A stretch of DNA of 11,629 nucleotides, taken from NCBI GenBank assembly GCA_001803565.1, contig MHDQ01000126.1, positions 1 to 11,629 on the forward strand, in the 5' to 3' direction. This DNA comes from Nitrospinae bacterium RIFCSPLOWO2_12_FULL_45_22 (lineage in GTDB: Bacteria; 2-12-FULL-45-22). The position numbers and the translations under genes are program-made. Shown in pieces: positions 2,984 through 11,629 of this stretch (positions are counted from its first letter, which is position 1; the number at the start of each line of letters is the position of its first letter). The notes below the pieces were generated by a model. That model made no database searches. It was given only the letters and a program-made list of their open reading frames with translations, and had not been told where the DNA came from.

Positions 2984-3025
2984 TTTATGTAACATCAAAT
3001 CGTTATAGATAATAGGGGAAGGAAG

Positions 3026-3640
3026 TTGACCCTTAGCGCTGATAAGCCGGATATGCATATGGAGGAGCTTGCTAAGAGGATGGTTGCCTTGGACCAGGAA
3101 GCATATCGCGAGTTTGCGGATATTTTCGGCCCACGGTTCAGGTCCTTTTTCTTGAAACGGGGGCTTACGGCTTCAGATGCAGAGGATCTGGCAGTCTCTT
3201 GCATTACCGATATTGCTCTCAAAATAGAAAAATACAAGTCTGAAAAAAAGGGGAGTTTTGTAGCCTGGATATACACAATCATACGCCATGAGTTGGTGAA
3301 CTGGTGGCGTAAGAAACCTGATGAAGTCCCCCTCACCAATGACGGGTTGTTAAATATCGCTCAGGAGGATGATCCAAGGCAGAATATTGACATCATCTGT
3401 GCGGTCGAAAATGCGGTAGCCAAGCTTTCGGATACCGATCAAACCATTATTCAACTCCGGGACCTTGGAGCACAACACTCATATGCCGAAATAGCCGAAC
3501 TCCTAGATATCAAACCCGGTAATGTAAGAGTCCGTCATCATCGGGCATTACAACGACTGCAATCTATCCTGGAAGAAGACCCGCACATCAGGAAACTACT
3601 GAATCGGAAAGAGAATAATGATCGGAGGGAATCCAAATGA
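3026..3640 (+). CDS. ECF-type sigma-70 family RNA polymerase sigma factor
   Basis: This 204-residue protein has the two-domain form of group 4 (ECF) sigma factors. Region 2 spans about residues 22-97, with DAEDLAVSCITDIALKI (51-67) as the core-binding and -10 helix pair and FVAWIYTIIRHELVNWWRKK (78-97) at its end. After an acidic linker, region 4 spans about 124-182, with LSDTDQTIIQLRDLG and a helix-turn-helix (YAEIAELLDIKPGNVRVRHH, 153-172) that would read the -35 element. The chosen start is TTG at 3026, preceded by GGGG (3015-3018, 7 bases away); an in-frame ATG at 3053 is the alternative and would lose nine non-essential residues. It opens the operon, overlaps the next gene by 4 bases (ATGA), and has a large palindrome upstream. 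It probably directs transcription of this operon and perhaps other loci, but its promoter motif cannot be read here. Confidence 0.9.
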   Translation: MTLSADKPDMHMEELAKRMVALDQEAYREFADIFGPRFRSFFLKRGLTASDAEDLAVSCITDIALKIEKYKSEKKGSFVAWIYTIIRHELVNWWRKKPDEVPLTNDGLLNIAQEDDPRQNIDIICAVENAVAKLSDTDQTIIQLRDLGAQHSYAEIAELLDIKPGNVRVRHHRALQRLQSILEEDPHIRKLLNRKENNDRRESK

Positions 3641-4263
3641 GAAGAAAAAAGGAATATCAAGCTTCGCAGATAGAAACCTATCAGGAGCCAGAGTGGTTCA
3701 CTGAAGCCTTACGGGCAACCCGCGATGCAGCCTATTTCGTTAATCCTGTTATTGAGCCGGAACAAATCTCTTTGTCTTTCCGAGAGAGATGCCGCAAAGC
3801 GGCGGAAGTCGCATTGATTCTTGAAACCCTTCGCAGGGAACGGCGGCGTGTTGGTTTCGTGCCATTATCGCTGGCTAACTATATAGAAGGGCTTGCCAAG
3901 GTAACTAACGTGTCACTGACTCCTGTACTGTTATGGCTGGGTATTACCGATCTTGCCGGGTTTGATCATGGCTCAGTGAAGGCCCTTGCCCGGTTAGCGA
4001 AAGATATTGAGATCAGCATCCGTGAGACGCTTGTTCATTTGCGCATTAGCTTTGCTGACCGGTTCGGCCTGGCGCCTATCTCCATGTTGCTCGCACACCG
4101 TCGTTCAACCGATGCTAGGCACAGCCAGTTGGAGGAATGCGAAGCGGCGCTTGATCAGGTCGAGCTGGAATTTGATCCCAAAACAAAAAGGGATTTCCGG
4201 CAAATCAGCGCTGAGGTTCGCTCGGTATATAAGTCTTCAGAAGAGGGTTCTTCTCTGTTCTGA
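3637..4263 (+). CDS. helical protein of unknown function, coupled to the sigma factor
   Basis: I do not recognise this 208-residue protein. It is predicted to be almost wholly alpha-helical and soluble, with no signal peptide or membrane segment. Residues 48-72 form a basic helix ending RRERRRVGF. Residues 75-105 (LANYIEGLAKVTNVSLTPVL within it) resemble a compact helix-turn-helix-like unit. Residues 112-155 form further amphipathic helices, and 163-196 is a charged, possibly coiled segment. Its ATG overlaps the sigma-factor stop (ATGA at 3637-3640), so the two are translationally coupled, the position usually held by an anti-sigma factor. However, it lacks both the membrane helix and the HxxxCxxC zinc motif of common anti-sigma factors. 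A soluble sigma-binding regulator is a reasonable guess from position only; a DNA-binding or adaptor protein is equally possible. Confidence 0.75.
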   Translation: MRRKKEYQASQIETYQEPEWFTEALRATRDAAYFVNPVIEPEQISLSFRERCRKAAEVALILETLRRERRRVGFVPLSLANYIEGLAKVTNVSLTPVLLWLGITDLAGFDHGSVKALARLAKDIEISIRETLVHLRISFADRFGLAPISMLLAHRRSTDARHSQLEECEAALDQVELEFDPKTKRDFRQISAEVRSVYKSSEEGSSLF

Positions 4264-4279
4264 TTGGGGTGATGCTATT

Positions 4280-5827
4280 ATGACCGACAGAGAGGTTTCG
4301 ATAAGCGCTTTGTTAAATAAGCTGGCCGATGGTTGGTCTGCCTCCCATCGTAGTCTCTTAGATGAGGTGATACTGCGATGGGAGAAGAGGTTCGACACAC
4401 GGGTTCAGGTCAAGGATATTGATGAGAATATCTGCAACTTTGTGACCTACCTGAGTAAGATTCGCCTCCGTGGAATGTATCGGCTTCCATGCCTGATCGT
4501 CGGCGGAAAAACTTCAGATTTAACCCCGGCTGTTAAGAAGTTCTGGGAAAAGGTAAAATGTCCAGGTCGCATACCGTTTGTGTTGACCTTATCCGACATT
4601 GCTTACCAACAAGCGCTGTATGTTGTCCCTCGTTCGGATTGTCTATTGCTCCCTCCTGATCAAGTCTTGTCCCTGCTGGATAGCGCTGATCCTCAGGATA
4701 CGCTTAAAGCATATCTCCGACAACAGATTCCAATACGACGGCTTAATCCATATACCATACTTCACTCAACCGACGGGAATATGTTTTTTGGGAGAAGCAA
4801 AGAGTTGGATAGGCTTCGGTACGAGAAAGATGTCAGCTTTGCCATCGCCGGCCCGAGTCGTATCGGAAAGACCTCTCTTTTGAAGCAGTACAATCGTGAG
4901 ATGATCCGCGAGGGTGATTCACGGGTTGCTCATATACGTGAGGTTGACTTCCATGATTGTCAGGATAGAACCCCGAATGGGGTGGCACGTTTTTTTGCGA
5001 TGGAGATTAATCCATCAAATCGGAGTAACAGGATGACTGCCGAGGGCCTGGTTAATTTCTTGAAGTACCAGCGTTCTGAGCATGGACACCGACTGGAGTT
5101 GTTATTAGACGAGGTGGATGAGGTTTGTCAGGGAGGGGCCTTCAATTGTCTCGGCAAGGCGGCCAAGGAAGGTATCTGTCGATTGATACTTTCCGGAAGA
5201 GGATCTTTGCTGAAGATGGCGTTGAGCTCACACTCTCCCATAGGTCATCGCCTGGATCTGATCCGTCCTGAACCCCTTGATACCGAATCAGCGAAAAAGC
5301 TGATTTTGGAACCACTGATGGACCTCGGCTTTCGTGTGATAGGCGTAGATCAAATTATCCACGACGTATTTCATTTAACAGGTCGTTTACCCCATCTTCT
5401 TCAATCCTATGGAAATAAGCTGGTGGATATTGCTCTTGTTGAGGGCACAGATACGATCTCCATAGAGCATATTGATAGACTCAAGTGGGATTTCGAATTC
5501 GCTCAATATTTGACCAGCCCGCTTCAAGACATTGTGGATCCCAAAGGGCGTCTTTTGGCCCTAAGTCTACTGAAGGAGAGCCATCGAGACTTCGATATTC
5601 CGTCTATCCAGAAATTTGCTGAAGGTCTAGGATTTAACCTTGATTATCAGAAAACTAAAGAAATGTGCAATGATCTAGTTATTCACAATATTCTGGCTTG
5701 GAACCAAGGGTTGTATCGAATCGCCACAGGAGCGCTGTCATACTATGCACGCGAGATGAGGTTTTTAGATGATGCTATAGACAAAGCACGCCATGCGATT
5801 AAGACGTGTCCTGACTCCGGCATGTGA
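4280..5827 (+). CDS. STAND/Orc1-like P-loop ATPase with N-terminal alpha/beta domain and C-terminal winged helix
   Basis: The start chosen is ATG 4280, preceded by GGGGTGA (4265-4271) at 8 bases; an upstream in-frame ATG at 4007 lies deep in the previous gene and is rejected. The product has 515 residues. Residues 1-150 contain an alternating alpha/beta domain (LPCLIVGG at 69-76, PFVLTL at 99-104, CLLLPPDQVL at 121-130). A linker (LNPYTI, then MFFGRSKEL at 168-176) leads into a P-loop NTPase of the kind seen in Orc1/Cdc6-like and STAND ATPases. Walker A is GPSRIGKT (191-198), Walker B is LELLLDEVDEV (272-282) with Asp277 and Glu278, a sensor-like ILSGRG lies at 303-308, and LTGRLPHLLQSYG (366-378) matches the family's TGxxPxLLQ helix. 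Residues ~420-490 look like a winged helix. All catalytic residues appear intact, so nucleotide-dependent switching is likely. No membrane segment is present. It precedes the kinase by 32 bases and is probably its sensing or scaffolding partner; the ligand is unknown. Confidence 0.85.
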   Translation: MTDREVSISALLNKLADGWSASHRSLLDEVILRWEKRFDTRVQVKDIDENICNFVTYLSKIRLRGMYRLPCLIVGGKTSDLTPAVKKFWEKVKCPGRIPFVLTLSDIAYQQALYVVPRSDCLLLPPDQVLSLLDSADPQDTLKAYLRQQIPIRRLNPYTILHSTDGNMFFGRSKELDRLRYEKDVSFAIAGPSRIGKTSLLKQYNREMIREGDSRVAHIREVDFHDCQDRTPNGVARFFAMEINPSNRSNRMTAEGLVNFLKYQRSEHGHRLELLLDEVDEVCQGGAFNCLGKAAKEGICRLILSGRGSLLKMALSSHSPIGHRLDLIRPEPLDTESAKKLILEPLMDLGFRVIGVDQIIHDVFHLTGRLPHLLQSYGNKLVDIALVEGTDTISIEHIDRLKWDFEFAQYLTSPLQDIVDPKGRLLALSLLKESHRDFDIPSIQKFAEGLGFNLDYQKTKEMCNDLVIHNILAWNQGLYRIATGALSYYAREMRFLDDAIDKARHAIKTCPDSGM

Positions 5828-5859
5828 AGGCCGTAAATAAAGCAGATGGAGGATAAACA

Positions 5860-8800
5860 ATGATTCCTTTTTATTACAAAAAAATCAGTCTTTCGTTTGT
5901 CCAGGAATTGTGCGATAAGGTCCATGACGGTGAGAGCGCGGTCTTGCTGGGATCTCGCTATGCTGGTAAGAGATGGATAATAAACCGGCTCTACTTACAT
6001 TTACCAGAGTCGGGGTTTATACCTATTATTCGAGTCTATTTCCAACGCGAATCCACGGTAAAATCTGCATGGGAAGTACATCAATTAATAGAAAAAGAGA
6101 TTAATGAAACAGGTGTGAACCTGAAGTTAGGGGAATATCAGGGAGATGAAATCTTTGAACCCATAGACCAATTATACTTGGAAACCAAGAAACCGATCAT
6201 CCTGCTTGCAGCCAATGTGGATAGTATGGCCCATTACCTGGCACGGCAATTCCTCGAGGGGGTAAGGACACGGGTTGAATCAAGACGGTTAGTTGTCGTA
6301 TTAAGTGGAGAGGATGATTTCCGTGACCTTGTTCATGGGCCAAAGTCCGAATTCAATTGCGCCAATCGGTATTTTGTCCAGGGTTTTGCCAAAGACGATT
6401 TTAAAGCCATTATTTCCCAATACGCAACTAGCCTGAACATCACATTCGAGGACGACACCGAGGCATATCGCATTCTTTGGGAACTGACTGAGGGGAACGT
6501 ATTTTTGCTCAAGTCATTGCTGTGGTCCGTGGTTGAGGGTCGTGTCCATTCAGACATTTCTCTAACCGTACCTGTTAGAGTTTCAGATATTCCGGACTCA
6601 TTCGAAAAGATGCAAATACCCGGTGTCTATGGACCTGATTTTCTTCGCTATGCGATTCGAGTCATTACCCGAAGACCGGATTGTTGGCAGGATTTAGAAT
6701 GCCTTATTAATAATAAACCTACAAATACGATCCCAATAGCTAGCGCTCCTGGCCCACTCGAGTTAGTCGGTATCGCTGTACGTGGTAATAACAATCGACT
6801 CCAGTTCGCCTCCCCATTGATGGCAAATTTTATACGACATTATTATGATGATCGTTGTTTCGGAGACCTCTATGCGGGTGACGGACAGTGGGATATGGCA
6901 TTTAAAAAATATAGTTTTCTCGGTCCACAGGAAAAAATTCGACCTTTAAACATTGAAGACAGGGTGAAAGTTGAAGAGACGCTCAATGCGTTTTGTTCTT
7001 CTCTGCATTTGGCCGCTACAGTGAATATTGATGCCGTAAAGGATCTTTTTACTCAAGGCTGTTTGCACATACTTGGATTCCAGGAAATTACATTCTGGGA
7101 ATACAATAACGGGTGGCATTTCCAACCGATGACCGAAAGCCCTGTCAAAATAGATATCAAAGATAATGTGCTGAAAATCCTTCCTCCTATGCCGCCAATG
7201 TTGCGTGGATTGCTACCGATGCCTGATCCCTGGAACGAAGATGCACTGTGCGTGTTACTCCCACCACTCCGTGCCAATCAATGTGGCGCGGTGGTAATGA
7301 GTACCTTTGAAAAAGAGAAAGCTATCTCTCGTGAACGTGGGAGTTTGGCCCGTAAACTGATTCACCATTTTGTGGATGCATATACCCATGCCGTCTCGGT
7401 TGAAAAGAATACTATGCGTCTTCGTGTACGGGATCAGCATATTGCGATCATAAACTCTATCTTTGATTCCCTGGGGAGCCGCATTCTGAATGTAGATCAG
7501 GCCATTGCCATGGCGGCACGGGGATTGCGTAATTTGGGATACAAGCGCGTCCTGTTCAGCTTGGTAGATCCGGAGGGCAAAAGGATTCAAGCCGTGCTGG
7601 ATGACTCCAGTGATTCATTAATTGACATCACTCAAATGTCTGATTGGCCTTTGGCCGAACCTACGGCCGATCTCCAGCCTTATATTATTCATACAAAACA
7701 GCCAAAGATCATCAAGGACGCCAGGCGGGAACCCCTTGCAAATAAAAAAATCGTCCGACTTGCACGCATGAAGGCCGAGGCCCTGGTTCCCATTTTGAAT
7801 CAAAATGGCGATGCCATTGGCACAATCCATGTCGAGCGTGAGGATGAGGCCGTCCCAACGCAAGAGGAAGTGGATGATCTATTAGTTTTTGGTCGCCAGC
7901 TTTCCATAGCCATCGAACAGAGTAAGAGGGTAAACATGTTGCAGTCGACGCTGGATAAGATCCCTGAACCTGTTGTCATCATCGATCGGCTTAAACGGCT
8001 CCTGTATGCAAATAGACCCGCCAATGATCTTTTTGGAACCAAGGCTGGTTGGCAGGACCAGCCAGGGGCTAAACCACCCAATGGGGGCGAGATGGATAAG
8101 ATGTTGGAATACCTCGATGAATCCCTGATATCTGGGCGCCGCATAGTTCATCACGCCGAAGGAATTGGGAAAAAGCCGACATATTGTGGTGCGGTCCTGT
8201 CCGATGTCATTCAAGATTGGCAAAATAAAACAATTGGTGCGCTATTACATATTCAAGATATGAACTATCTCTACCATGTGTTCGCCGCATTTCGCGTTAT
8301 TGCTGAATCTAACGACACTGACTCTGCTATACGCTCCATGATGGAAGCGACGCAGTTATTGGGGCATAAATGGGGACGTTTGTACCTTGTTGATGAAATG
8401 GATCCTGATTGCCTCGTGAGTGTGCGGTCTTTCGGTTTTGGGGACAAGACAATCCAAGAAGAATTCACCAAGGGTCACATTAGATTGCCGCGCTCCGATG
8501 AACCTGGGTATGTTTCGTGGAAATGTATAGACCTCAAAACCCCTCTGGTCTTTTGCTGGAAGGAGGATCTCCCAAATGATACTGAAGTAGTAACCCGGCA
8601 AGGTTTGCGGGCAACCAATGTAAACCCTCCAAGATCTCCCAAGCCGGTGCAGAAGCAACCCGGGGATTTCTGGATCGACTTTCCTCTCATCTCCCAGGCA
8701 AAAGTCTTGGGCAAGGTGGTCCTCCAGTGCGACGAGAGCCTACGCCCTGAAGAATTTGAGCTGCTCAAAGTGCTTTCTGATATAACAACCGGACTGTTGG

Positions 8801-9552
8801 GTGCCTTTCTTCGTCGAGGCCAAACATTCCATGAACGCGAGGATTGGATAAGAAGGGCGGCTGATGAAACCATGGCGGTCACGGCACACAATATTGCCAC
8901 TCGCTTTTCCGCTTTGCCGGTATTACTGGACAGATATAAAAAGCTCCAACAAAAAGTGCCGAAATTGGAGGAACTAAATAGAGATTTCTCTCACATAATG
9001 AAAGAGACCCTGGATTTAGTCAAAAGGACAAAGGACCGACTGTCGCCGGTGACTCCCCTCCTTACCAAGATCAATATTTCAGACCGAATAAGAAATGCCC
9101 TAAGGTCTGCACTTCCTGCTGATGCATGGGATATTAAGTGTGAGGATCCTGATTTAATCGTGCACGCTGATACCCACCTATTAGAGAATGCTATACAGGA
9201 ATTCCTTCAAAATTCACGGGATGCAATCCCAGATGTCACGGATATGCATGTATCGGTCAATATTCGAAGCAAGGATAATTGGGTGAAATTAGTATATAGC
9301 GACAACGGTCCTGGTGTGCCTGGAGATTTTAAGGAACGGATTTTCGAAAATTTCTTTAGCTATCGGCCTGGGCGAAAGACCGGGACGGGTCTTGGTTTGG
9401 GGTTTGTCCGTAGAGTGATTGAAGCTCACGGTGGAACTGTTCGGGAAGAGGGAAGGCCTGGCCAGGGAGTGAAATTCGTAATTGAAATACCAAAATCGGG
9501 AATAATTAATGAAAAGGAGGAAGAATTTCATGTTTCGAATCCTAATCGTTGA
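5860..9552 (+). CDS. large cytosolic hybrid sensor histidine kinase: P-loop NTPase-like domain, GAF/PAS modules, kinase core
   Basis: This 1230-residue protein starts at ATG 5860 behind GGAGGA (5848-5853, 6-base spacing). Residues 1-~330 form an NTPase-like module with GSRYAGKR (31-38), a P-loop whose usual Ser/Thr is Arg, and a hydrophobic strand IILLAANVD (113-121) with a single Asp as Walker B. Residues ~370-515 look like a divergent GAF domain. Residues ~524-690 are a clear second GAF (ALVPILNQNGDAIGTIHVER at 641-660). Residues ~692-800 are a PAS domain (LDKIPEPVVIIDRLKRLLYA at 698-717), and ~803-985 a third GAF. The kinase core follows: phospho-acceptor candidate His1010 in AHNIATRFSALP, N-box EFLQNSRDAI (Asn1118), G1 box SDNGPGVP (1147-1154), F box IFENFF (1161-1166), and G2 box GTGLGLG (1175-1181). 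No membrane helices are seen, so it senses intracellular signals. The response-regulator gene begins inside its 3' end, making a cognate pair. Kinase assignment is firm; the signals are unknown. Confidence 0.92.
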   Translation: MIPFYYKKISLSFVQELCDKVHDGESAVLLGSRYAGKRWIINRLYLHLPESGFIPIIRVYFQRESTVKSAWEVHQLIEKEINETGVNLKLGEYQGDEIFEPIDQLYLETKKPIILLAANVDSMAHYLARQFLEGVRTRVESRRLVVVLSGEDDFRDLVHGPKSEFNCANRYFVQGFAKDDFKAIISQYATSLNITFEDDTEAYRILWELTEGNVFLLKSLLWSVVEGRVHSDISLTVPVRVSDIPDSFEKMQIPGVYGPDFLRYAIRVITRRPDCWQDLECLINNKPTNTIPIASAPGPLELVGIAVRGNNNRLQFASPLMANFIRHYYDDRCFGDLYAGDGQWDMAFKKYSFLGPQEKIRPLNIEDRVKVEETLNAFCSSLHLAATVNIDAVKDLFTQGCLHILGFQEITFWEYNNGWHFQPMTESPVKIDIKDNVLKILPPMPPMLRGLLPMPDPWNEDALCVLLPPLRANQCGAVVMSTFEKEKAISRERGSLARKLIHHFVDAYTHAVSVEKNTMRLRVRDQHIAIINSIFDSLGSRILNVDQAIAMAARGLRNLGYKRVLFSLVDPEGKRIQAVLDDSSDSLIDITQMSDWPLAEPTADLQPYIIHTKQPKIIKDARREPLANKKIVRLARMKAEALVPILNQNGDAIGTIHVEREDEAVPTQEEVDDLLVFGRQLSIAIEQSKRVNMLQSTLDKIPEPVVIIDRLKRLLYANRPANDLFGTKAGWQDQPGAKPPNGGEMDKMLEYLDESLISGRRIVHHAEGIGKKPTYCGAVLSDVIQDWQNKTIGALLHIQDMNYLYHVFAAFRVIAESNDTDSAIRSMMEATQLLGHKWGRLYLVDEMDPDCLVSVRSFGFGDKTIQEEFTKGHIRLPRSDEPGYVSWKCIDLKTPLVFCWKEDLPNDTEVVTRQGLRATNVNPPRSPKPVQKQPGDFWIDFPLISQAKVLGKVVLQCDESLRPEEFELLKVLSDITTGLLGAFLRRGQTFHEREDWIRRAADETMAVTAHNIATRFSALPVLLDRYKKLQQKVPKLEELNRDFSHIMKETLDLVKRTKDRLSPVTPLLTKINISDRIRNALRSALPADAWDIKCEDPDLIVHADTHLLENAIQEFLQNSRDAIPDVTDMHVSVNIRSKDNWVKLVYSDNGPGVPGDFKERIFENFFSYRPGRKTGTGLGLGFVRRVIEAHGGTVREEGRPGQGVKFVIEIPKSGIINEKEEEFHVSNPNR
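9514..9520 (+). promoter_or_regulatory. strong ribosome binding site inside the kinase gene that fixes the response-regulator start
   Basis: AAGGAGG lies 9 bases before ATG 9530 and within the last codons of the kinase gene. It favours ATG 9530 over the in-frame ATG at 9509, because the receiver domain proper begins with MFRILIVED. Confidence 0.85.
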
Positions 9553-10222
9553 AGATATTGAATTAACCCTCGAACAACTTGAAAAAACTCTATCCGAGGA
9601 GTTTCCTCAGTCAACAATTGACACCGCTGAAACGGTTAAGGAAGGGCTTGAACGGATTGAAGCGGCAGTGGATAAGGGCCAACATTATCATGCGGCTGTC
9701 CTGGATTTCAAGTTGCCTGAAGATAAAGGAAAACAAGATGAGGTGGACGAATCGCTGTGTGAAAAAATCAGGCATGAAATGCCGGATATAATCGTCGCTC
9801 ACATTTCCGCATACCCAGGTGACCCCAAAATTCAGGATCATGTGAAAAATTATCATCTAGATCGCAGGGACTCTAGCGCGGCATTAATCTCCAAGGACGA
9901 AGTAGACTGGCCCTCGGAACTCGTCAAAAAGTTGAAGGAATTTCTCTATGGAACACGCATTGAAGAACAGATAAATAATCTATTTCGCAAGCAACCAGTG
10001 AGCGCATATCGTGAACCGATTTATCGCAGAAGAACAGGAACAATAGGTAATGGAAGCGTCACCCATGAACTCGCCGCCTTGTTTCGTGACATTTTGGAAA
10101 ACTGGACAGCGCTGGATGACAGATTACGGACCAGGATTATGTCTCTGTTTCGCGTAGATACCTCAAGTGATCCCATACGCATCGGTTTGATAAAAGACAT
10201 AGATGCCATGATGAAGGAGTAA
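9530..10222 (+). CDS. response regulator with receiver domain and unassigned helical C-terminus
   Basis: This 230-residue protein is the likely phospho-acceptor partner of the upstream kinase, whose gene it overlaps by 23 bases. Residues 1-~145 are a CheY-like receiver with all key positions: Glu8/Asp9 (LIVEDIE), phospho-acceptor Asp59 in AAVLDFKLPED, Ser93 in HISAYPGD as the switch residue, and Lys122 in LISKDE. The loop after Asp59 is longer than usual (residues ~64-75, rich in Lys, Asp and Glu). Residues ~150-230 form a short, mostly helical tail (THELAALFRDILENW, then LRTRIMSLFRV) with no recognisable helix-turn-helix, enzymatic or RNA-binding motif. Direct promoter binding is therefore unlikely; the tail may mediate dimerisation or contact with another operon product. 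The peptidase-like gene begins 3 bases after its stop. Confidence 0.9.
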   Translation: MFRILIVEDIELTLEQLEKTLSEEFPQSTIDTAETVKEGLERIEAAVDKGQHYHAAVLDFKLPEDKGKQDEVDESLCEKIRHEMPDIIVAHISAYPGDPKIQDHVKNYHLDRRDSSAALISKDEVDWPSELVKKLKEFLYGTRIEEQINNLFRKQPVSAYREPIYRRRTGTIGNGSVTHELAALFRDILENWTALDDRLRTRIMSLFRVDTSSDPIRIGLIKDIDAMMKE

Positions 10223-10225
10223 AAT

Positions 10226-11509
10226 ATGCCGGTTCTTAGGATGGAAGACATCCTTGAGAAACTCCCGCTAATACTGGAATCCGACCACTTTATTGTCCGC
10301 TTTGCCCTTCGAAATCCACAGGAAGGCAGGGGAGAGAAGCGAGGTGGTGTTAGAAACCAACGATTACTCCTGGCTTATCTTGATGCCCTTGAAAGGCTAT
10401 ATGCGACAATGACCGAGGGGCCCTGGAAACGTTATCCGCCTAATACCGGTGGCCAGGGAAAGACTCTTGTATTCGTCTTTGACACCTCGGAGTTTTTACG
10501 AAGCGCTGACTGCCCCTTCACTAGTGTTGACCACAAAGGTATCCCTTTTATTGGCCTCCCATACCAGAACAATGAACCTATCATACATGGCGAGCTCCAG
10601 CGAGCAGCGGTAGAAGCCATTCATGAGGCAACGCATGTTTTTAATTTTCGCGAGCGGCCTCTTCTTGATCCCCAAACGGGCATTTGGGATCCTGCTGTAA
10701 AATTATGGGTATGGTTTGACGATGCTATGGCTGTTTTCATGGAGACGCTGGTCTTGTCAGGATGCCCCGAGCATCTTCGTTTTATCATGGAATGGAGTGA
10801 CAGGCCGGATATGCCGCTTGATGGCTTTTATTCAAGATACCAATCGAGCATGTTTGTCCGTTATCTGGGAAGGAGAATGGGGCTAGAATTTATCAATAGG
10901 GTATGGACAGAGTCTAAGAGGGATGAGATACCAATCCAGGCGCTTGATAGATTGTTACGGCAGGAAAACCTGGAGTTCTCTTCATCCAATCCAGAGATTC
11001 GAGACATCTTTGCCTCGGGCTACTGCATGGATTCTTATTTTCTGATCGATCCCAGGAGTCCAGGCTTCGCGCCTGAGGTATACGAGAGATTTCGTGAACG
11101 GGCAATATCGGAAAGTTTCTTATTAGGTGCAGGGAAAACCGCAGAGACTGAAGGTTGTCTGGACCACCTCGCTTGTCAATACTACCGGCTCTATGTCATG
11201 AATAGCGTCAAGGCTATTCAAGTTCAGCTTGAAACCAAAGCCCTTGGAGGAGATACCCCACTCAAGGCAGAGATAGCGACAGTAACTGATGAAATGCAGC
11301 GGGGTAAAGTCCGGCCATTGAAACGGACCACTTTCCCTGGGCAAGATGATACGGTGCAATTATCCACTGTATTGAACGAAACAAACCTAGAGGATATTGA
11401 CCATCTCGTCCTTGTTGTCAGCAATTGTGGAGTCAGAGCTGTACAGGAAAAACCTGGCATTGAGCACGATGACCAACAGGAGTATAAAATTGTTGTTGCA
11501 GCTTACTAG
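10226..11509 (+). CDS. cytoplasmic HExxH zinc-metallopeptidase-like protein
   Basis: This 427-residue protein starts at ATG 10226, with AAGGAG (10214-10219) overlapping the end of the response-regulator gene. The central feature is AIHEATHVF with HEATH at 133-137, the zinc-binding and catalytic signature of zincin peptidases. A second helix, WFDDAMAVFME (163-173), sits where gluzincins carry the third ligand (compare WLNEGFA in M1 enzymes), but the aligned ligand position is Asp166 rather than Glu; Glu173 is an alternative. Downstream, YQSSMFVRYLGRRMG (205-219) and FINRVWTES (222-230) match the helical layout of such peptidases. Residues ~325-427 look like a beta-sandwich tail ending in YKIVVAAY. 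The N-terminus (MPVLRMEDILEKL) has no signal peptide, so the protein should stay in the cytosol, unlike most secreted relatives. As the last gene of the operon it is the best candidate effector. The peptidase-like fold is likely; activity and substrate are inferred. Confidence 0.75.
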   Translation: MPVLRMEDILEKLPLILESDHFIVRFALRNPQEGRGEKRGGVRNQRLLLAYLDALERLYATMTEGPWKRYPPNTGGQGKTLVFVFDTSEFLRSADCPFTSVDHKGIPFIGLPYQNNEPIIHGELQRAAVEAIHEATHVFNFRERPLLDPQTGIWDPAVKLWVWFDDAMAVFMETLVLSGCPEHLRFIMEWSDRPDMPLDGFYSRYQSSMFVRYLGRRMGLEFINRVWTESKRDEIPIQALDRLLRQENLEFSSSNPEIRDIFASGYCMDSYFLIDPRSPGFAPEVYERFRERAISESFLLGAGKTAETEGCLDHLACQYYRLYVMNSVKAIQVQLETKALGGDTPLKAEIATVTDEMQRGKVRPLKRTTFPGQDDTVQLSTVLNETNLEDIDHLVLVVSNCGVRAVQEKPGIEHDDQQEYKIVVAAY

Positions 11510-11629
11510 AAAATTTTAGAGAGGAGCGTCAGTCTCTTCTAAGTTCACCTTGGTAAAATTAAACCTATTCTGCATCTAAAGCATGGTGCTCCATTTCTAT
11601 CCTCCACTCAAAAAAAATCCCTAACCAAT
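11510..11629. other. noncoding end of window, no clear terminator
   Basis: Only a weak 5-bp hairpin is visible just after the last stop (AGAGA at 11518-11522 with TCTCT at 11533-11537), without a U-run. An A-run of eight lies near 11610. On the minus strand a GGAGG (11601-11605) precedes an ATG (11594-11592) that meets a stop after nine codons. No gene is supported here. Confidence 0.5.

Follow-up and report, generated by a model that had tools for sequence, protein, structure and literature searches.

A conserved six-gene unit joining an active and a degenerate NTPase to a histidine kinase, a receiver and a sigma factor as a candidate defence signalling system

TIR domains and pairs of active and inactive STAND nucleoside triphosphatases (NTPases) recur in prokaryotic immunity (PMC11249213, PMC8195603), the former as antiphage effectors or signal makers (PMC11249213). 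In the mobile two-gene nSTAND2 conflict system (Kaur et al. 2021), an active STAND protein accompanies an inactive one fused to variable modules (PMC8195603, Fig. 6C); the fused effector is most commonly GT4 or HEPN, and the pair is predicted to form a toroidal hetero-multimer (PMC8195603). Detocs is a three-gene defensive two-component family, whose best-described member employs an ATP-cleaving PNP effector (PMC11249213). Here, we analyzed an 11,629-nucleotide stretch of DNA from Nitrospinae bacterium RIFCSPLOWO2_12_FULL_45_22 (MHDQ01000126.1; referred to as the window), which is the whole of contig C126 in the assembly G000 (3.67 Mb, 85% complete). Six plus-strand genes at 3026-11509 encode an extracytoplasmic function (ECF) sigma factor, a helical protein, an active STAND/Orc-like ATPase, a pseudo-NTPase fused to sensor domains and a histidine kinase, a receiver protein, and an HExxH protein. 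Judged from gene order and occurrence, these genes are one conserved, co-inherited unit, and because this unit travels together in distant bacteria, in some of them with TIR genes and apparent control of a degenerate reverse transcriptase (RT), we regard it as probably an undescribed defence signalling system. No open-access paper describing this composition was found, which is weak evidence of absence.

Conservation and composition of the six-gene unit

A GTDB search with gene 3 returned one contig, from the 6.1-Mb Acidobacteria metagenome-assembled genome JABFSD01 (G060), with homologues of genes 3, 4, 5, and 6 in order (41, 41, 42, and 32% identity to the window genes, respectively). Gene 2 alone had two strong matches in this genome, each with an ECF sigma factor gene upstream and a STAND gene downstream. 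One is on contig C457, whose 132-base overlap with the first contig (131 bases identical) yields a complete six-gene operon (G060a); the other, on contig C473, belongs to a second, divergent copy that ends inside the kinase gene (G060b). Contig C543 probably carries the receiver-TIR-HExxH part of G060b, the kinase end missing between the contigs.

Profile searches covered 396 Acidobacteriota genomes and 386 genomes spread across the domain (about 780 in total); this sample covered only some species, each represented by a single genome, with fragmented contigs, and included one genome of the same order as G000, the remainder sharing the domain only. Two further operons were detected in Acidobacteriota, one complete (G351) and one on a contig that stops within the kinase gene (G232), so that five operons could be compared: the window, G060a, G060b, G351, and G232. 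The operon was found in 3/396 Acidobacteriota genomes, in one of them twice, at about 40% identity. Since the same order recurs at this level of divergence, the six-gene layout is far beyond chance, and the order of the core genes is fixed across two phyla. Genes 1 to 4 are present in all five operons and genes 5 and 6 wherever the contig reaches; the receiver gene precedes the HExxH gene, with or without a TIR gene between them, in the window, G060a, and G351, and by inference across the contig break in G060b.

Among the searched genomes, the gene 2 profile matched the window and the four Acidobacteriota loci already identified, and no other locus. Except for distant STAND relatives in G428 (Acidobacteriota) and G661, neither the STAND nor the helical gene turned up outside the unit in these genomes; G661 was the only STAND match in the domain-wide set besides G000 itself. 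If both genes occurred independently, the chance of their sharing the same 3/396 genomes would be about 1e-7 by simple arithmetic; as the profile was built from these very loci, it is the lack of matches elsewhere that is informative. In 352 Acidobacteriota genomes, the HExxH profile matched G060 (two loci) and G351 only. No relatives of gene 3 or gene 4 were detected on viral contigs and none of gene 4 on plasmids. An initial annotation of the window had read these six same-strand genes, with this layout and these domains, as a single candidate system, and had named rare co-occurrence of their homologues as a result that would speak against it. All open reading frames are present, the domain matches agree, and rare co-occurrence was checked for and rejected.

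The genes are separated by junctions of -4, +16, +32, -23, and +3 bases. Gene 1 (3026-3640, plus strand as for all six; 204 amino acids) starts with TTG, preceded by GGGGAAGGAAG, and encodes an ECF-type sigma factor (sigma70-ECF, E=2.4e-20) with a homologue in 5/5 operons. Overlapping it by 4 bases, gene 2 (3637-4263) encodes a 208-amino-acid helical protein, likewise in 5/5 operons, which has no Pfam match and belongs to no known family; its position makes it a candidate anti-sigma factor or adaptor.

Gene 3 (4280-5827; 515 amino acids) encodes an active STAND/Orc-like ATPase (nSTAND1, E=2.7e-7, above the cut-off), composed of an alpha/beta N-terminal region, the NTPase, and a helical C-terminus. 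Its Walker A motif (GPSRIGKTS, 4850-4876, plus strand), which reads GPSRIGKTSL with the next residue, and its Walker B motif, LLLDEVDEV in the window, are intact in all five operons (consensus, AGP..xGK[TS]SL and LLLDEVD). Gene 4 (5860-9552; 1,230 amino acids), also present in 5/5 operons, has the order pseudo-NTPase, GAF, PAS, GAF-like, histidine kinase (HATPase_c, 2.7e-19; GAF, 2.7e-12; PAS_8, 3e-5). Its Walker A motif is degenerate (GSRYAGKR, 5950-5973, plus strand), with Arg or Lys replacing Ser or Thr. Because all five operons have [GA]xRxxGK[RK] here instead of GK[ST] and lack the acidic Walker B pair, the front of gene 4 can be considered a conserved pseudo-NTPase, and the active/degenerate pair noted in the initial annotation is thus a constant feature of the unit. 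No STAND model matched this N-terminal NTPase alone. Its motif layout is collinear with that of gene 3, and the STAND-type assignment is drawn from this layout because the profile match between the two is weak. His1010 (8887-8889, plus strand; AHNIATR) is invariant in 5/5 operons and is the probable phospho-accepting residue; DNGPG is kept wherever the contig extends, and the GxGLG(L/M) box is found in the three complete kinases. Other matches of gene 4 in the G000 genome involved the generic kinase domain only.

Gene 5 (9530-10222; 230 amino acids), which starts with ATG preceded by AAAGGAGG, encodes a receiver protein without a DNA-binding domain (Response_reg, 5e-5, below the cut-off) in which D9, D59, and K122 are conserved across operons. 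Its helical C-terminus, specific to this family, is conserved as well and carries an invariant TH.LA.L.RDI motif (residues 176-192, with Thr178-His179), in which a second phosphotransfer site is conceivable. Gene 6 (10226-11509; 427 amino acids) encodes a cytosolic zincin-like protein related to DUF6055 (E=8e-9; 35 bits against a cut-off of 27) and to MXAN_6640 (E=1e-10; 42 bits, below the cut-off of 140). HExxH is kept in 4/4 copies (HEATH at 10622-10636, plus strand, in the window) and is followed by WxW(F/I/V)D(E/D)xxAVxME, whose E/D position, Asp in the window (WFDD) and Glu in the three other copies, is a probable third zinc ligand.

The six-gene run follows a complete comEC gene (121-2634) at a distance of 391 bases, and the view of the locus ends at 11629, 120 bases past gene 6. 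The GC content of the operon gives no sign of recent foreign origin, and internal promoters or terminators were not in excess over shuffles. At the contig start, upstream of comEC, an AT-rich inverted repeat (acaaaattagca ... tgctaattttgt, 1-72) could be the end of a small mobile element.

TIR genes, a common cis-element and the RDD unit

A TIR-domain gene is inserted between the receiver and HExxH genes in G060b (203 amino acids; TIR_2, E=4.6e-24) and G351 (145 amino acids). The two TIR proteins are 30% identical over 186 columns (E=1e-25). The same interval holds no gene in the window and G060a.

The window has the sequence TGTAAC-N7-CGTTAT at 2988-3006 (plus strand), 19 bp before the start codon of the sigma gene, which is a candidate autoregulatory ECF promoter or operator. 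TGTAAC-N6/7-CGTT(AT) precedes all five sigma genes. When the 70-bp upstream regions of these genes were compared de novo, GTAAC-N8-GTTAT emerged with 39/40 matching positions, a score reached in 0/300 shuffles (mean, 27; maximum, 31). The half-sites are similar to the -35 sequence TGTAAC of Bacillus subtilis SigX and the -10 sequence CGTT of Acinetobacter SigAb (PMC12153292), and the short-spacer element may be a promoter of unusual geometry or an operator built on an AAC/GTT dyad. Just upstream of the window element, a 13-bp inverted repeat (CATTATAAGACCG/CGGTTTTATAATG, 2951-2983) overlaps a TATAAT box; this repeat is not apparent in the upstream sequences of the other operons.

At G060a, G060b, and G351, the operon neighbours a two-gene unit encoding an RDD membrane protein and an RT-like protein (L032 2971-4890, L026 6713-8687, L024 965-3171). 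In G060a and G351, the unit follows the operon in convergent orientation; in G060b, it lies upstream. Its second gene gave one weak DDE match at first and was then identified as RT-like by RT model matches (PADLOC RT, E=1e-19 to 8e-13) and a profile match to CRISPR RT; as no catalytic motifs are recognisable in the protein, we consider it a degenerate RT. A relaxed scan of the operon loci detected TGTAAC-N6/7-CGTT upstream of 3/3 of these units as well, in the same form as at the sigma genes. Based on this common element, the sigma factor probably drives the RDD/degenerate-RT unit, and for this reason it looks like a regulon switch, not the mere dosage control proposed in the initial annotation.

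The G000 genome has no close copy of the degenerate RT gene, and the sole match there was a CRISPR-associated RT. The same genome has a CRISPR locus on contig C291 (L053 1-8116) with Cas1, Cas6, a 997-amino-acid fusion of RT, TPR, and archaeo-eukaryotic primase (AEP-TOTE), and repeat-like sequence at 2147-2536.

A proposed immune phosphorelay and its alternatives

We tentatively propose, with a little less than even confidence, that the unit is a phosphorelay-gated, ECF sigma-amplified conflict system of the immune type, built on an active/inactive NTPase pair. Gene 3 and the ATPase-dead front of gene 4 would combine into a mixed sensor-switch complex, triggered by a cue from an intracellular invader or from damage, with the GAF/PAS domains of gene 4 supplying a second input. 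Assembly of this complex would activate the histidine kinase of gene 4, which would then phosphorylate the receiver. Since the receiver has no DNA-binding domain, it would act by protein contact, releasing the sigma factor from gene 2, a cytosolic anti-sigma factor or adaptor in this scheme, and/or turning on effectors. Via the TGTAAC-N6/7-CGTT element, the sigma factor would boost its own operon and also the RDD/degenerate-RT unit at loci that have one. Putative effectors are the HExxH protein in every operon where this part is visible and the TIR protein in two.

Several observations weigh against this proposal. The window operon has no TIR gene, no defence island was seen near the operons (the neighbours encode ComEC, DnaG, MgtC/DUF4010, an ABC ATPase, and peptidases), and PADLOC gave no convincing match to the core genes. 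At 6-7 bp, the spacer lacks about one helical turn relative to the roughly 17 bp of an ECF promoter example (PMC12153292), the H-box of gene 4 has Asn after His in 5/5 operons instead of Glu or Asp, and the anti-sigma role of gene 2 is suggested by gene position alone. Structure models were unusable: AlphaFold, run on two-row alignments, gave predicted local distance difference test (pLDDT) values of 38 for gene 6 and 50 for gene 3, too poor for fold searches, and searches against solved structures returned nothing useful.

The main rival is a cytoplasmic stress-response regulon switch like EcfG-NepR-PhyR, in which kinase and receiver free the sigma factor from gene 2 upon metabolic or redox stress sensed by GAF/PAS, no invader is involved, and the HExxH protein serves the response as a housekeeping protease. 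Such a switch would account for the ECF sigma gene with an adjacent small helical gene in 5/5 operons, often translationally coupled, for a receiver without an output domain, for the GAF/PAS sensors of gene 4, for the cis-element shared by sigma genes and RDD units, and for the lack of a defence island. However, it leaves unexplained the TIR genes within two operons and the paired active and dead STAND NTPases, the receivers match no sigma-like domain, and the patchy occurrence (3/396 Acidobacteriota genomes), with two divergent copies in one genome, is unlike a core stress response. We therefore consider it unlikely, though worth keeping in mind.

The initial annotation had proposed regulated proteolysis as the output, such that the phosphorylated receiver switches the HExxH protease on a host or phage target and the sigma factor sets dosage only. 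Receiver and HExxH genes adjoin, or have only a TIR gene between them, in all resolvable operons, and the HExxH motif is kept in 4/4, which favours this version. Proteolysis alone is probably not the output, however, because a TIR gene is inserted beside the protease gene in two of the four resolvable operons; a second regulon unit shares the cis-element, the zinc-ligand position is Asp in the window, and protease activity is itself putative. In this form the idea appears improbable. Slightly less probable again is an operon held together by shared regulation, in which the STAND/kinase pair senses a signal of its own, with the HExxH, TIR, and RDD/RT genes as cargo that is only loosely attached: the TIR and RDD/RT genes are indeed absent from some operons, but the six core genes keep their order across two phyla, gene 2 is exclusive to the unit, and a search of 352 Acidobacteriota detected the HExxH family in these genomes alone.

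With slightly more reserve than for the mechanism itself, the unit may represent an undescribed class of bacterial immune system. In this class, the phosphorelay would be gated by an active/pseudo STAND pair, a dedicated ECF sigma factor would amplify the response and switch on a small regulon (the operon itself and the RDD/degenerate-RT unit), and HExxH and interchangeable TIR proteins would act as effectors. If so, a single portable immune unit would bring together NLR-like STAND switches, two-component phosphorelays, and ECF sigma factors, three signalling logics that are mostly investigated separately, and would provide a natural example of a histidine kinase under pseudo-NTPase control. 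A degenerate RT and an RDD membrane protein would be tied to the unit by a common cis-element, which yields directly testable predictions on regulation and effectors.

Comparison with known systems

Cyanobacterial HstK-type proteins are Ser/Thr kinase-AAA-GAF-histidine kinase fusions and share the order NTPase-GAF-histidine kinase with gene 4, which differs in its lack of a Ser/Thr kinase domain, its eroded NTPase, and its fixed six-gene context. PhyR contains a sigma-like domain, whereas the receivers studied here match Response_reg only, and membership in the EcfG-PhyR group was rejected on this ground. Otherwise, EcfG-NepR-PhyR resembles the unit in its ECF sigma factor, adjacent small helical protein, receiver, and kinase; its kinases are of the HWE/HisKA2 type, and it lacks STAND, TIR, and protease genes (PMC4814048).

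EACC2/caspase systems (ECF sigma and TPR genes) and iSTAND/MoxR-vWA ternary systems feature inactive STAND proteins, receiver domains, peptidase or TIR effectors, and occasionally ECF sigma factors, and histidine kinases are not reported among their effectors (PMC8195603, PMC7159879). Unlike in these systems, no MoxR, vWA, caspase, or EAD genes were recognised by Pfam in the window proteins or scanned neighbours, so that membership in the MoxR-vWA ternary group, with no MoxR AAA+ or vWA match, was rejected. Avs membership was likewise rejected: gene 3 had no Avs match in PADLOC, and an Avs1a match was to the MBL domain of ComEC.

Among published designs, the nSTAND2 pair of one active and one inactive protein (Kaur et al. 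2021) comes closest by our comparison, with Detocs as a functional analogue. In Detocs, a kinase and receiver pathway is proposed to gate an immune effector, not transcription, and both proteins are present here. Our unit has no PNP domain, its receiver lacks a recognised effector domain, and it comprises six to seven genes, which excluded it from the family; conversely, STAND pairs, ECF sigma factors, and HExxH/TIR genes do not feature in the description of Detocs.

Among the distant STAND relatives, the G428 gene is followed by a protein with a P-loop-like motif (HGPQFCGQR) fused to a calcineurin-type phosphoesterase (both at L034 8001-11689), which fits the rule of variable modules in STAND pairs and raises the possibility of a sister system with a different output. 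G661 encodes two proteins of about 1,760-1,785 amino acids with repeated propeller-like segments and a STAND-like domain (L037 1774-7131, L038 9333-14606), each adjoining a gene for an AAA_35-like NTPase, with a flavodoxin-like gene nearby.

Similarly to the nSTAND2 system, adjacent active and motif-eroded NTPases occur in all five operons, the inactive one is fused to a C-terminal module, and the patchy occurrence here parallels the mobility described there. Gene 3 homologues match nSTAND1, AAA_22, and ATPase_2; no nSTAND2 match was listed, and the model library may lack nSTAND2. In contrast to that system, the fused module is a GAF/PAS-histidine kinase, not GT4 or HEPN, and six to seven genes, including those for an ECF sigma factor, a helical protein, a receiver, and an HExxH protein, replace two. 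We favour a conflict system because active/inactive STAND pairs of this kind have been published and, in the unit described here, a kinase takes the place of the effector fusion, with a relay, a sigma factor, and effectors added.

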